From an uncultured Spiribacter sp. (GTDB lineage Bacteria > Pseudomonadota > Gammaproteobacteria > Nitrococcales > Nitrococcaceae), in NCBI GenBank assembly GCA_913056145.1, contig CAJXMI010000013.1, positions 1-35,204 of the forward strand: a stretch of 35,204 nucleotides of DNA, in the 5' to 3' direction. A model generated the notes under the pieces. That model worked only from the letters and a program-made list of their open reading frames with translations. It made no database searches and was not told where the DNA came from. Position numbers and translations under genes: made by a program. Below are positions 16,392 to 21,036 of this stretch, one piece after another. Position 1 is the first letter of the stretch, and every line of letters starts with the position of its first letter.

Positions 16392-17448
16392 CGGTTTGCA
16401 AGGCCACGGGGCCGATTTGCGCGATAGGGTGCTCGACTGGTTCGACCGCCACGGACGCCACGACCTGCCCTGGCAGCATCCTGCGACCCCCTATCGGGTG
16501 TGGATCTCGGAGGTGATGCTGCAGCAGACTCAGGTGGCTACCGTCATCCCGTATTTCGAGCGCTTCATGGCGCGATTTCCCGATGTCGAGACCCTCGCCG
16601 CCGCCGAGCTCGACGAGGTGCTGGCACTGTGGGCAGGCCTTGGCTATTACGCCCGGGCCCGCAACCTGCATCGCTGCGCACAACAATTGGTTGCCGAGCA
16701 TGCTGGCGACTTCCCCGATCACATCGATCAGGTCGAGGCCCTGCCGGGAATCGGCCGCTCGACGGCTGGGGCCATCCTGTCGCTGTCGCGCGATGCGCCT
16801 CACCCCATCCTCGACGGCAACGTCAAACGGGTGCTGGCACGCTACTTCGCAGTGCCCGGCTGGCCTGGGCGATCCGCTACCAGCCGCGAGCTATGGCGCC
16901 TGAGCGAGTCAGTCACGCCGGCCGGCCGCGCGGGCGACTTCAACCAGGCGATGATGGACCTGGGGGCCACGGTATGTACCCGCCGGCCCGACTGCGCGCG
17001 CTGCCCGCTACACAATGGGTGTCAGGCCCGGGCCGAGGGCAACCCACAGGCCTATCCGGGGCGCAAACCGCACCGCGAGAAACCGCTGCGCAGCACCCGA
17101 ATGCTGATCATCCGGCGCAGTGATTCGGCCGCGCTGCTGGTCCGCCGGCCGCCCCAGGGCATCTGGGGCGGGCTGCTGACACTGCCGGAATGCCCCGTCG
17201 ATGCCGACCCCGCGCCCTGGGCCGAGACCACCCTGGGCGCATCGATCGCCATCGAGGCGCATGGCAACCCACTGCGCCACGAGTTCACCCACTACAGCCT
17301 GGTAATTCACCCCTGCCATGCGCGGCTGACACGGACTGTCGCCGTGCAGGACGGCGAGCACGTCTGGTATAAAGCCGGGCACGACGTGCCGGGCGGCCTG
17401 CCCGCCCCGGTCCGCAGACTGCTCGATCAAAAGGAGCCCGCAACATGA
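16384..17448 (+). CDS. mutY: Adenine DNA glycosylase MutY
   Basis: Removes adenine mispaired with 8-oxoguanine. Domains: HhH-GPD fold with [22 protein letters not shown], the hairpin [12 protein letters not shown] and the catalytic aspartate in [13 protein letters not shown]; an iron-sulphur cluster motif; then a C-terminal NUDIX-like domain (from about residue 235). No ATG fits, so I chose TTG at 16384, inside the end of asmA, giving 354 residues starting [18 protein letters not shown] at 16396 or 16417 and GTG at 16432 are alternatives. The cluster cysteines are spaced C-x5-C-x2-C-x5-C, one short of the usual first x6. Confidence 0.93.
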
Positions 17449-17717
17449 GCAGCGATACCGTCAATTGTGTCAAGGCCGGCCGCGAAGGGCCGCGCCTGAA
17501 GCGCGTTCCCTACACCGGCGAGCTTGGCCAGCGCATCTACGACAACGTCAGCCAGGAGGGCTGGCAGATGTGGCTGGGTCATCAGACCATGCTGATCAAC
17601 GAATACCGCCTCTCGCCGATGGACCCGAAGGCGCGACAGTTCCTTGAACAGGAAATGGAAAAGTTCTTCTTTGGCGAAGGCTCGGCCCCACCCCCCGACT
17701 TTCAGCCGGAGCAGTGA
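17445..17717 (+). CDS. yggX: Probable Fe(2+)-trafficking / oxidative damage protection protein YggX
   Basis: Small cytosolic protein of 90 residues with the conserved N-terminal cysteine (VNCVKAG), [20 protein letters not shown] and [12 protein letters not shown] blocks of YggX. It protects iron-sulphur proteins from oxidation. The ATG overlaps the mutY stop in ATGA. The mutY-yggX pairing is common in gammaproteobacteria and fits a shared oxidative stress and iron-sulphur theme. Confidence 0.95.
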
Positions 17718-17739
17718 CCCGGCGGCCCGCGGCGAGCGC

Positions 17740-17768
17740 TTGACCCGACGGGCCTCATCGGGTTGAAT
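17740..17768 (+). promoter_or_regulatory. Putative promoter of tRNA-Phe with GC-rich discriminator
   Basis: TTGACC (17740-17745) and TTGAAT (17763-17768) are separated by 17 bases, and the following AGCGCGCTCGG is GC-rich. That discriminator is typical of stringently controlled stable RNA promoters. It sits just upstream of the tRNA. A CCCGA/TCGGG inverted repeat lies within the spacer and could instead be part of a yggX terminator. Confidence 0.45.
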
Positions 17769-17780
17769 AGCGCGCTCGGC

Positions 17781-17856
17781 GGCCAGGTAGCTCAGTTGGT
17801 AGAGCAGACGACTGAAAATCGTCGTGTCGGGAGTTCGATTCTCTCCCTGGCCACCA
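17781..17856 (+). tRNA. tRNA-Phe (GAA)
   Basis: A complete cloverleaf of 76 bases can be drawn. The acceptor stem is GGCCAGG with CCTGGCC, the D arm is GCTC/GAGC, and the anticodon stem GACGA/TCGTC encloses the loop CTGAAAA with anticodon GAA. The T arm is GGGAG/CTCTC (one G-U pair) with loop TTCGATT. Discriminator A and the 3' CCA are encoded. It follows yggX. The accessory islet begins right after it, suggesting this tRNA has served as an integration site. Confidence 0.96.
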
Positions 17857-18028
17857 TCTTTCAAGCATTTGCAGCGTTTTCAGCCCCTCCAAACGCCGTA
17901 GCACACCTCCCCGTCAATATTCGTGGCGTCAAAAACACTGCAACTCAGGTCAAGCAGCGTATACAGCCTATCGGAGCGAGGCGATCGCGCATTGCCGCAG
18001 CCGATTCGGCTGCGCTAAGCGATTTTAC

Positions 18029-18058
18029 TTGACAAATAAGCAAGAGCCGCACCAGGAT
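18029..18058 (+). promoter_or_regulatory. Putative promoter of the HTH-nucleotidyltransferase-phosphatase operon
   Basis: A consensus -35 TTGACA at 18029-18034 is followed after 18 bases by CAGGAT at 18053-18058 as a weak -10. Transcription would start near 18065, inside the palindrome described separately. Confidence 0.45.
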
Positions 18059-18083
18059 GTCCCATGTCCTAGGACTGAGGACA
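18058..18083. promoter_or_regulatory. Operator-like palindrome before the islet operon
   Basis: A 26-base imperfect inverted repeat centred between 18070 and 18071. The inner ten bases GTCCTAGGAC are a perfect palindrome; after three mismatches on each side the outer arms TGTCC and GGACA match again, so ten of thirteen pairs agree. It overlaps the predicted transcription start and lies 17 bases before the HTH gene. It is a likely autoregulatory site for the encoded HTH protein; binding is inferred. Confidence 0.6.
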
Positions 18084-18100
18084 ACCTCAAGAGATAAACC

Positions 18101-18754
18101 ATGAAAAGTCAAGACATTGGCCTGCTTCTTAAGCTGGTCGCCTTGCGAAGCATAGAGGGCCATGACCCCGACACTCACCCAGGCAAAGGGGCTCGGGTGC
18201 TTCGCGATGACTGGCGGGACTGGGCGCTGGATGACGCCGACATCGACTTGCCCGAGGAAAGCCTGCCGGTGCTCCACCAGGATCCGATGCTGGCTCGCTA
18301 TAGCGTCCGGGCCTTGGCCAAGGAAACCGGGATCAGCAAAAGCCAGGTGAGTCTGGCCCTTCAACGTTGTATGCAGGTTGGTCTGGCTCGCAAGGATCGC
18401 AGGATCAACGTGCCGCGTGCGAATCTACGGGCGCTTTTCAACTTCATTGCGCATGGGGTGCGCTATGTATTCCCGGCCAAGCCCGGCGAAATCACCCGCG
18501 GCATCGCGACTACCTTTGCCGCACCGGTACTGGAGGGACAGCTCTACAGTGCGGGAGAGCTACCGATGGTGTGGCCGGATGCCCGGGGTAACAGCAAGGG
18601 CCAAGCCATCGACCCTCTGTTCAAGAGTGTGCCCTATGCGGTCCGTCGCGATCGGGACCTGTACGCCATGCTGGCGCTAGTGGATGCCATTCGAGTGGGC
18701 CATCCTCGCGAGAGCAAGCTCGCTGCTGAACGGCTCGCCGCCTATTTGGAGTAA
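18101..18754 (+). CDS. Helix-turn-helix protein, putative antitoxin/regulator of an AbiE-like module
   Basis: Protein of 217 residues. Residues 67-97 (YSVRALAKETGISKSQVSLA) form a clear winged-helix-type HTH. The second half has a conserved-looking block (LFNFIAHGVRYVFPAKPGEI, then MVWPD, KSVPYAV and LYAMLALVDAIRVGHPRE) that I recall beside nucleotidyltransferase genes, without a firm family name. Three bases separate it from the nucleotidyltransferase gene, whose ribosome site GGAG is in its last codons. The context and operator suggest it represses the operon and may neutralise the enzyme, as AbiEi does for AbiEii. Wobble positions look less GC-rich than in neighbouring genes, hinting at transfer. 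Confidence 0.75.
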   Translation: MKSQDIGLLLKLVALRSIEGHDPDTHPGKGARVLRDDWRDWALDDADIDLPEESLPVLHQDPMLARYSVRALAKETGISKSQVSLALQRCMQVGLARKDRRINVPRANLRALFNFIAHGVRYVFPAKPGEITRGIATTFAAPVLEGQLYSAGELPMVWPDARGNSKGQAIDPLFKSVPYAVRRDRDLYAMLALVDAIRVGHPRESKLAAERLAAYLE

Positions 18755-18757
18755 CGG

Positions 18758-19462
18758 ATGAGTCTATTCGACGATCAACTTTTCATGATGCGCCAGGTGG
18801 CCGAGGCCCTTGGGGCCGAGCTTCGCGATCAAGTGGCCTTCGTCGGGGGCTGCACAACAGGGCTGCTGCTGACCGACCCTTTCACCCGCGAGCAGGTGCG
18901 CAGCACCGACGACGTGGATCTGATTGTTAGCGTTATGGGCTATCTCGATCTGCACCGCTTCAAGGAAGAGCTTAAGTTGAAGGGTTTCAAGGAGCCCCGC
19001 CATATGGACGAAGACATGCCCATCTGCGCGATGAGGCTGGGGGAGCTGCGCGTCGACTTGATGCCAGACCACGACGAGGTGCTCGGCTTCAGCAATCAGT
19101 GGTATCCCTTGGCGCTGGAAACCGCCGAGCTCGTCCCTTTAAGGGAGAATCTGGCCATTCGCATAGTCACCCCACCGCTATTTATCGCCACCAAGCTGGA
19201 GGCCTATAAGGGACGCGGCAAGAATGACCCATTGTCGAGCCATGACATTGAGGACATTCTTAACCTGGTGGATGGCCGGCCCGAGCTGCTCGATGAGGTG
19301 CGAGCCGCCGACAGGGCAGTCCAAACTTACATCGCTGCTGAGCTTGGCAAACTCCTTGATAATGATGGTTTCGGCAATGCCGTGCAGAGTCAGGCAGGTA
19401 ATGAGGACCGGGAAGCAAGACTCTACGAGCACTTGGAAATACTGGCAGGGCAGCTAGACTGA
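18758..19462 (+). CDS. Nucleotidyltransferase, AbiEii/AbiGii toxin-like
   Basis: Protein of 234 residues with a minimal nucleotidyltransferase fold. The catalytic pattern is GG at 30-31 (FVGGCTTG), DVD at 52-54 (STDDVDLIV) and a third aspartate D100 (LRVDLMPD). The AbiEii-type helix follows: K146 in IATKLEAY, then RGKNDPLSSHDIEDILNL. All key residues are present, so it should be active. Known relatives include AbiEii and the MenT toxins, which transfer nucleotides to tRNA or protein and block growth. The target here is unknown. Its stop overlaps the phosphatase start in TGATG, so the two are translationally coupled. A non-defence nucleotidyltransferase is possible. Confidence 0.82.
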   Translation: MSLFDDQLFMMRQVAEALGAELRDQVAFVGGCTTGLLLTDPFTREQVRSTDDVDLIVSVMGYLDLHRFKEELKLKGFKEPRHMDEDMPICAMRLGELRVDLMPDHDEVLGFSNQWYPLALETAELVPLRENLAIRIVTPPLFIATKLEAYKGRGKNDPLSSHDIEDILNLVDGRPELLDEVRAADRAVQTYIAAELGKLLDNDGFGNAVQSQAGNEDREARLYEHLEILAGQLD

Positions 19463-20160
19463 TGCGACCCAGCTGGTTCAGCCAGAAAGGCCGCAAGCGC
19501 GACCGCAACTGTGATGCTGTTGCCGTGGGCAAGAAAGGCCACCGCCTCCTCGCAGCGCTGGTTGACGGCGCAGAGAAAGGACCTCATGGCGCAGAGCTTG
19601 CCCGACACTGGGCTGATACCGTCTTGCATACGCTGGCGGCGGCTGCTTGTTGTTCATCGACGGACGTTCATACTCGCCTTAAAAAGGAACAAGCCCAGCT
19701 TCGCCATGACTTCCCCCTAGATATCGCTAGCTACTGCATGGTCGCCCTCGATCTGGAAACGCTTTCGACCCAGGTCTGGCACTGTGGCGACTGCCGGGTA
19801 GGCCTACGACAGCAGACCGAGACGCGCTGGCTGACAACGCCCCATATCCTGGCGTACCAGCATGGCTTGCCTTCTTCACCCTCACCTGAAGATCAGAACC
19901 GTCAAACGCAGCAGCTGACCCGCTGCCTGAACGCCAAACGTTTCAGATTACCCGAATATGGGGTTTTCTCGCTGCAGCCAGATCAAATATTGCTGCTTGG
20001 CACAGACGGCTATTGGCAGGAGCACCTTGAGGCAGGTACGCCTTGGAATCGCCTCAAAGACGATGCCAGTCTTCTCACTTTGCCGGTTGCGCCCCGACCC
20101 CTACCTCGCATAGAGCAGACGTCAGATGCCAATAATCTAAGGCATATTTCGCACGGATGA
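19462..20160 (+). CDS. PP2C-type (PPM) serine/threonine phosphatase
   Basis: Protein of 232 residues with the PP2C motif order: RDRNCDA (14-19, usually N-E-D), VDGAEKGPHGAELA with metal-binding D35, HCGDCRVG (108-114, usually GDSR), LLLGTDGYWQ with D182, and DDASLL (200-205). The metal aspartates are kept, so activity is plausible. Cysteines replace the common Glu in NED and Ser in GDSR. It is the last gene of the islet operon, overlapping the nucleotidyltransferase by one base. The function is unknown: it could reverse a modification, sense a signal, or be an effector. Its stop abuts the stop of the convergent hydrolase gene with no bases between. Confidence 0.8.
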   Translation: MRPSWFSQKGRKRDRNCDAVAVGKKGHRLLAALVDGAEKGPHGAELARHWADTVLHTLAAAACCSSTDVHTRLKKEQAQLRHDFPLDIASYCMVALDLETLSTQVWHCGDCRVGLRQQTETRWLTTPHILAYQHGLPSSPSPEDQNRQTQQLTRCLNAKRFRLPEYGVFSLQPDQILLLGTDGYWQEHLEAGTPWNRLKDDASLLTLPVAPRPLPRIEQTSDANNLRHISHG

Positions 20161-21036
20161 TCACAGCGCCCCCCGCTGCGACCCAAGCCCCTCCAGAAAC
20201 CCTGCCAGCCGTGGCCACTGTTCGGTCAGTTCCGCGCTGAGGTCATGGCCACCCTGCAGCCAGACCAGTTGCGTGGACGCCGGATCACCCGCCTGCGCCA
20301 GAGCTTCGGCATCAGCCGGCGGAATCACGCGATCGCGGCGGCCGTGGGCGATAAGGACGGGGGCCCGAATTCGTCGGATCACGTTGACCGGCGCGATGGC
20401 GTTGAAGCGATGACCAATCACCCACTCCACGTAGCGCAGCACCAGCCAGCCGATGGGCATAAAGGGGATATTTCTGGCCGCCAGCCAGCGCCGCATCATC
20501 CGCTCGGGATGCACGAAGCCGGATAGGCTGATCACGCCATCGACATCATCCCGTTGCGAGGCCGCCAGGAGCGTCGCGGCCGCGCCGACCGAATGGCCGG
20601 CCAGCACCAGCGGGCCTTCATGGCCATCACCATCGGGCCGCAGCCACTTGACCGCGGCATCGATATCTTCGGCAAACCGCGGCATCGACGAGAAATTGTC
20701 GGCATCGCTGTTGCCGTGATTGCGCACGTCGAAGACCAGCACCTGCCAGCCCGCTGCCTGAAGCGGCCTGGCAAGCGCCAGCATGAACACCCGATTGACG
20801 CCCCAGCCGTGGCAGATTACGACCTGGCCACGGCGCGGATCGCCATCCAGCAACCAGCCTGCCAGGCGCCGCCCGCGGGCGGTCGGTATGACAACCTCAC
20901 GGCCTGCAACGCCATAATCGGCGGGCGTACCCGTGACTGGCCGCCGCGGCGCCGCCAGGCTCCGATGCAGCCAGTAGCGACTGCCCCATAGCAGCAGCGC
21001 GAGCAGGACCGCTGCTAAAAGTATCCAGATCATCAT
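20161..21036 (-). CDS. Membrane-anchored alpha/beta hydrolase
   Basis: Serine hydrolase of 291 residues. The N-terminal helix (IWILLAAVLLALLLWG) probably anchors it in the membrane. The catalytic triad is visible: nucleophile Ser in AGHSVGAA, Asp in HGRRDRVIPP and His in LQGGHDLS; the oxyanion region is HGWGVNR. The substrate is unknown. It lies seven bases after the LacI gene on the same strand, so the two may be co-transcribed; whether it serves the sugar-acid pathway (for instance opening a lactone or ester) is speculative. Two adjacent ATGs (21036, 21033) leave the exact start open. Confidence 0.82.
   Translation of the reverse strand: MMIWILLAAVLLALLLWGSRYWLHRSLAAPRRPVTGTPADYGVAGREVVIPTARGRRLAGWLLDGDPRRGQVVICHGWGVNRVFMLALARPLQAAGWQVLVFDVRNHGNSDADNFSSMPRFAEDIDAAVKWLRPDGDGHEGPLVLAGHSVGAAATLLAASQRDDVDGVISLSGFVHPERMMRRWLAARNIPFMPIGWLVLRYVEWVIGHRFNAIAPVNVIRRIRAPVLIAHGRRDRVIPPADAEALAQAGDPASTQLVWLQGGHDLSAELTEQWPRLAGFLEGLGSQRGAL

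Follow-up and report, generated by a model that had tools for sequence, protein, structure and literature searches.

AbiE is a type IV toxin-antitoxin system made of AbiEi and AbiEii, and AbiEi is reported to repress abiE through two 23-bp inverted repeats, 3 bp apart, that lie over the -35, -10 and +1 positions (PMC3985639, PMC7319586). The MenT toxins are silenced by phosphorylation of a Ser or Thr residue; the modified residue is given as S78 of the motif R76-x-S78-x-D80-x-D82 in TglT/MenT3 (PMC7205606) and as T39, two residues before D41, in MenT1 (PMC11375011). A kinase-repressor pair placed before immune operons has also been described (PMC13373217). Here we analyze a 35,204-nucleotide (nt) stretch of DNA, the window, from an uncultured Spiribacter sp. 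(contig CAJXMI010000013.1), in which a dyad at 18058-18083 precedes a three-gene operon, A-B-C, at 18101-20160. Comparison of sequences points to the dyad as very probably the operator of this operon, bound by the gene A product, which would thus repress its own operon. Control of this kind is known, and the operator would be a new form of it.

The A-B-C operon resembles AbiE in its layout, with a helix-turn-helix (HTH) gene first and what may be a DUF1814-type nucleotidyltransferase (NTase) gene second, and in having a regulator that acts on its own promoter through inverted repeats, known for AbiEi and proposed for gene A. It differs in its operator, one 24-bp unit of four half-sites instead of two 23-bp repeats spaced 3 bp apart, and in carrying a third, PP2C-like gene. 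In AbiE, as a type IV system, toxicity is neutralised with no contact between toxin and antitoxin. No AbiEi model is among the 7 Pfam matches of gene A at E<=1, nor among the families listed for 36 relatives of gene A (the best 25 of 37 at E<=0.1). Because no AbiEi match was seen and the operator design is different, gene A was not filed as AbiE. The COG4861 antitoxins correspond to PF09952 (PMC7251935), a family that gave no match to gene A at E<=1, its presence in the Pfam copy used being unchecked. On the Pfam matches listed, membership of gene A in AbiEi/COG4861 was rejected.

The promoter and the dyad have the following elements.

18029-18034, plus strand: -35 element TTGACA, from the sequence; a -35 stands at a similar place in GTCC-type loci
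18053-18058, plus strand: -10-like hexamer CAGGAT, 3/6 matches to TATAAT, of a predicted promoter
18058-18083, no strand assigned: proposed operator dyad, 26 nt, on the basis of sequence, conservation, genome scans and co-variation
18059-18062, 18066-18069, 18072-18075 and 18079-18082: half-sites GTCC, GTCC, GGAC and GGAC

The dyad reads TGTCCCATGTCCTAGGACTGAGGACA, with 10 of its 13 base pairs matched, and the pairing is perfect in the 10-bp core GTCCTAGGAC and in the outer TGTCC/GGACA. An initial annotation had described it as a 26-base imperfect inverted repeat with a perfect core and these arms, and reading of 18058-18083 bears this out. The inverted repeat is present as described; its unit, however, is seen from the relatives to be a set of four GTCC/GGAC half-sites, GTCC-N3-GTCC-N2-GGAC-N3-GGAC, spanning 18059-18082. 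The same annotation had the dyad overlap a start predicted from TTGACA-18-CAGGAT, and the coordinates agree. TTGACA and CAGGAT are 18 nt apart, and the dyad opens on the final T of CAGGAT; a start at about 18064-18066, as expected from this promoter, would fall inside the left arm.

As a palindrome the dyad is only moderately unusual. The window contains one 26-mer with five outer and five inner pairs, vs an average of 0.05 over 20 dinucleotide shuffles; 2000 shuffles of the surrounding 300 nt gave none. If at least 10/13 pairs and a perfect 10-bp core are enough, the window has 5 such palindromes vs 2.3 expected, and 0.7% of local shuffles have one. The looser count is unremarkable, and the case rests on conservation. 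A simple longest-palindrome score upstream of the window's gene A picks 17996-18014 and not the dyad. Among the titles that literature searches returned, those for GTCCTAGGAC are unrelated, and none of those listed for ATTCGCGAAT concerns an operator of this design.

The initial annotation had proposed looking for the dyad upstream of relatives of the HTH gene. A first genome scan with gene A gave 8 related loci, 5 of them from Halomonas or Vreelandella, and the dyad lies downstream of TTGACA in all 8, one half-site being degenerate in locus L006. The scan, plasmid stretches and whole genomes together provided 107 usable loci. For the plasmid set, 122 records matched gene A; 26 stretches were analysed and the other 96 left out, as were the genome matches G237, G402, G531 and G565. 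Rows were dropped for the window itself (L001, L013), for copies of L007 and L008 (L014, L015), for gene fragments or a start not found (L016, L017, L062, L070), for a broken frame (L038) and where no gene A was found (L047, L048). The upstream regions of the 107 loci share a common grammar of half-sites with the spacing 4-3-4-2-4-3-4. A grammar score of at least 20 is reached by 84/107 loci vs 1/2140 shuffles and 0/321 stretches inside gene A; at 18 or more the counts are 95/107, 17/2140 and 1/321. The initial annotation had named a lack of conservation in relatives as a refutation; the dyad is instead conserved in every locus of the first scan, and as an architecture in most of the 107. This architecture accompanies gene A on plasmids of Pseudomonadota, Cyanobacteriota, Deinococcota and Bacteroidota. 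Half-sites are degenerate in L018, L051, L063, L067 and others.

By their half-sites the 107 loci were typed as GTCC (40), RTTC-like (60, TTTC and GTTT included) and unclassified (7). Stricter typing on 92 loci, a set that still contained L014, L015 and L038, gave 40, 47 and 5. Loci L117, L122 and L125 show a third operator flavour, with GTTTCC-like halves joined without a central gap and with proteins that have Ala80. Tandem operators stand upstream of gene A in L020 and L022, those of L022 being of a divergent ATCC type. Phage records gave no match, and viral contigs gave 2 loci with a local match of 20 residues only, which were not used. A search centred on G420 covered 1 genome only.

The position of the operator relative to the promoter was compared in both types, a -35 being counted when it had at least 5/6 matches within the range searched upstream. 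A -35 was found in 30/40 GTCC-type loci, 29 of them with it 28-32 nt before the first half-site and 16 at exactly 30 nt. For the RTTC-like loci it was found in 39/59, at a distance of 12 nt (11 loci), 23 nt (6), 30 nt (6) or scattered (16), as raw counts without a chance control. In the three main registers (30, 23 and 12) the operator lies on or between the promoter elements. This placement on the core promoter fits repression, and the shift of register among loci fits steric repression better than activation. In most of the RTTC-type loci L081-L096, TTGACATTC directly before the first half-site forms a fifth half-site that overlaps the -35.

The registers bear on two other explanations. The dyad-bound protein might activate the promoter, or might repress only together with the gene B product, a conditional co-repression that in this second form overlaps with autorepression. 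Many antitoxins repress better together with their toxin, and the weak -10 is of the kind seen in some activated promoters. The distance from -35 to operator varies, however, unlike that of activators, and AbiEi is reported to repress without its toxin (PMC3985639); we regard this alternative as unlikely. The dyad might also act in RNA, as a hairpin of the 5' leader (an attenuator, a stability element or a protein-binding stem), since transcription can run through an inverted repeat that lies close to its start. With the expected start inside the left arm, however, the transcript would hold only part of the stem, and the fold of RNA from that start is no better than that of shuffled sequences (z -0.62). 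Moreover, in RTTC-type loci with a -35 at 12 or 23 nt the dyad starts at the expected -10 or upstream of it. The lack of a notable fold and the promoter registers led us to reject the hairpin, which has an extremely small chance of being right.

Genome scans with the GTCC pattern, and with the reversed pattern as a control, showed where else the site occurs. Across 54 genomes of the window's order, with at most 1 mismatch allowed, 8 sites were found, each without a mismatch, and the genomes that have them are the same 6 that carry gene A; the sites adjoin gene A or a decayed gene A, 48 genomes have no site, and the reversed control gave 12 sites. Genome G006 has three exact sites, one beside an intact gene A and two beside broken or deleted copies (L016/L112, L017/L113). 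Among 369 genomes of the class, the exact pattern is present only in G000 and G104, both of which have gene A. Two further genomes (G129, G397) have a GTCC-type gene A with imperfect half-sites (L018, L019), which were missed by the exact-pattern scan. In the window's own genome, with at most 3 mismatches, there are 1 exact site and 5 sites at 3 mismatches, and the reversed control gave 14. Thus, as far as the search with the GTCC pattern reached, no exact site stands apart from gene A and its remnants, and the site appears dedicated to the operon. A regulon beyond the operon was rejected, the pattern being unique in its own genome. Within the window's genus, gene A is present in 2/14 genomes.

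The letters of the operator correlate with the following part of gene A.

18338-18376, plus strand: codons of the predicted recognition helix of gene A (residues 80-92), from alignment and the AlphaFold2 (AF2) model; K80 is the proposed specificity residue

Residue 80, the first of this helix, is Lys in 40/40 GTCC loci and in 0/60 of the others, where it is Ala (30), Pro (12), Ser (6), Val (5) or another residue (7). Among the columns scored in the 92-locus set it tells most about operator type (1.00 bit). A tree from which the helix was left out shows about 3 changes of operator type and 3 of K80. Residue 82 correlates with the next base: in 37 GTCC loci a C follows the outer GTCC in 33/40 arms with Gln82 and in 1/34 with Glu82. 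That a host regulator other than the gene A product binds the dyad is very unlikely in view of these data. In the 54 and the 369 genomes every exact site adjoins gene A or a remnant of it, the architecture accompanies gene A on plasmids of four phyla, and its letters correlate with the gene A helix.

Several observations weigh against an operator bound by the gene A product. The score is below 18 in 12/107 loci, and L121, L123 and L126 have no convincing operator. The -10 is poor, with its 3/6 matches. In a Foldseek search of the gene A model against the PDB there was no match at E<=0.001. One of the roughly 3 changes of operator type is on a long and perhaps misplaced branch (L117, L122 and L125 beside L057). 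The well-supported branches give 2 independent contrasts, both in agreement with K80 and too few for significance. Much of the residue-80 correlation is ancestry; at residue 82 the tree has one change, which brings the correlation there close to a single event. Finally, the grammar was composed after the loci had been seen, and many loci are related. A later set of loci was therefore taken, and 20/20 new loci have at least 19.2 by the same score, both outer half-sites being GTCC in each. In this set a C follows the outer GTCC in 10/10 cases with Gln82 and in 1/30 with Glu82, and both inner half-sites are degenerate in L153-L157. These 20 loci are all of the GTCC type and from one bacterial family, and some are nearly identical to earlier loci.

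Autorepression by the first gene had been suggested in the initial annotation, and the conservation, the genome-wide link to gene A, the co-variation with the helix and the position on the core promoter lend it support at the level of sequence. In the mechanism that we propose, the winged-helix product of gene A would bind all four GTCC/GGAC half-sites, possibly with two dimers whose inverted pairs overlap. The bound protein would cover the end of the -10 and the transcription start, exclude RNA polymerase and so repress A, B and C. By analogy with toxin-antitoxin operons, transcription would rise when A is titrated or lost. Two dimers are suggested by the four nested half-sites. A long palindrome in L067, centred on GTCC-N9-GGAC, hints that this pair is the unit for one dimer. 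Two dimers sit on overlapping palindromes in DtxR/IdeR operators, and the nested half-sites here likewise suggest two dimers on one short operator. The letters differ from those operators, and gene A has a structural match to an IdeR only at E 0.83, short of significance.

All three genes match the PADLOC candidate system PDC-M21, with M21A, M21B and M21C adjacent.

18101-18754, plus strand: gene A, winged-helix protein of 217 amino acids (aa), PDC-M21A (PADLOC E=1.6e-78), proposed autorepressor and antitoxin
18758-19462, plus strand: gene B, AbiEii/MenT-like NTase of 234 aa, PDC-M21B (PADLOC E=1.7e-90), proposed toxin
18899-18919, plus strand: codons of the gene B motif R48-x-T50-x-D52-x-D54, invariant in a 19/19 alignment
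19462-20160, plus strand: gene C, PP2C-like phosphatase of 232 aa, PDC-M21C (PADLOC E=8.9e-47)

The winged-helix matches of gene A in Pfam are under the cut-off; the best, MarR_2, has E=0.0008 and 20 bits vs a cut-off of 27, so membership in the MarR family is not supported at the Pfam cut-off. The AF2 model of gene A, made with 8 sequences, has a mean predicted local distance difference test (pLDDT) score of 52 and contains winged HTH elements: helices 69-76 and 80-92 and short strands 96-98 and 105-107, the blocks over 81-110 being the best at about 70. The PDC-M21A model also matches in the control genomes of Corynebacterium glutamicum and Methanocaldococcus jannaschii. Gene B of the window has no Pfam match at E<=1; PF08843 matches 12/19 members of its alignment at E<=0.1 (best 5.3e-6), and a profile of the 19 relatives matches PDB entries 5uvd (1.3e-5) and 8an4 (0.0026). 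A structure model of gene B from the single sequence was useless (mean pLDDT 36.6). Gene C matches PP2C_2 with E=1.9e-4 and 21.5 bits, under the Pfam cut-off of 24. Among 12 sequences of gene C, D35, D110 and D182 are invariant, and D18, D200 and D201 nearly so. In the library searched, no paper carries the name PDC-M21, and no description of its function or operator was found. This candidate defence family would gain a control element that is common across replicons and phyla. The operator could serve as a sequence signature for finding further members, and K80, as the proposed specificity residue, is open to a mutation test.

Gene B keeps the R-x-[S/T]-x-D-x-D motif of MenAT1/MenAT3, a likeness established by motif spacing and not by alignment to MenT. 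R48, T50, D52 and D54 are invariant in 19/19 sequences, and 86 of the 88 gene B proteins with the N-terminal part have R-x-T-x-D-x-D, always with Thr; two stop short of the motif, and 5 more proteins lack that part. Unlike in MenAT1/MenAT3, gene A showed no match here to the antitoxin families of those systems, and a phosphatase-like gene is present in the operon. In the MenT work an unidentified phosphatase was postulated to reverse the silencing of the toxin (PMC7205606). One might speculate that A silences B by driving phosphorylation of T50, that C is the PP2C phosphatase which re-arms B, as so postulated, and that the operators form a protein-DNA code in which K80 reads GTCC, other residues read RTTC and residue 82 tunes the next base. 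Taken as a whole this is doubtful. A phosphatase-like gene C beside a motif-bearing NTase makes the reversal of MenT-type phosphorylation testable (PMC7205606). No paper combining PP2C with AbiEii or with an NTase toxin-antitoxin system was found in a literature search.

A profile search found gene B in 39/40 GTCC-type and 49/60 RTTC-like loci and gene C in 31/40 and 2/60 (L065, L066), some of the misses being short or broken loci. Gene C is thus not essential to the whole family. In L036, L039 and L043, gene A continues into an NTase-like domain with a short second gene behind, and the operator, of an ATTC type, is kept. Pfam, run on L036 and L085 only, gives NTP_transf_2 at 9e-12 and HepT-like at 4.4e-25 for L036; in L085 a HepT-like gene lies downstream of gene A. 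These arrangements suggest that toxin-antitoxin pairs of more than one kind make use of gene A and the operator. The operon is often plasmid-borne: examples adjoin repB and repC, one is on an Acinetobacter plasmid of 8 kb, and others are near other toxin-antitoxin genes. The control usual for toxin-antitoxin operons, which the initial annotation had invoked, is thus supported by context: the AbiEii-like NTase, plasmid carriage, and the fusion of A to an NTase domain with a HepT-like gene in L036.

Upstream, the islet adjoins a tRNA gene.

17781-17856, plus strand: tRNA-Phe, directly upstream of the islet

This neighbour would suit a dyad that is a relic of recombination or of an insertion site at the islet boundary, with no regulatory role. 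On different replicons, however, the dyad lies about equally far from gene A and in an unchanged promoter setting, which leaves such an origin barely conceivable. A recombination site was rejected, as the repeats detected in 17700-20400 include neither a copy of the dyad nor clear end repeats. The GC-rich palindrome CGCAGCCGATTCGGCTGCG at 17996-18014, between tRNA-Phe and the operon, has a short T run further on and is possibly a terminator. In the genus, the two parts of 17445-17860, the stretch before tRNA-Phe and the tRNA itself, match about 1-6 kb apart in several relatives.
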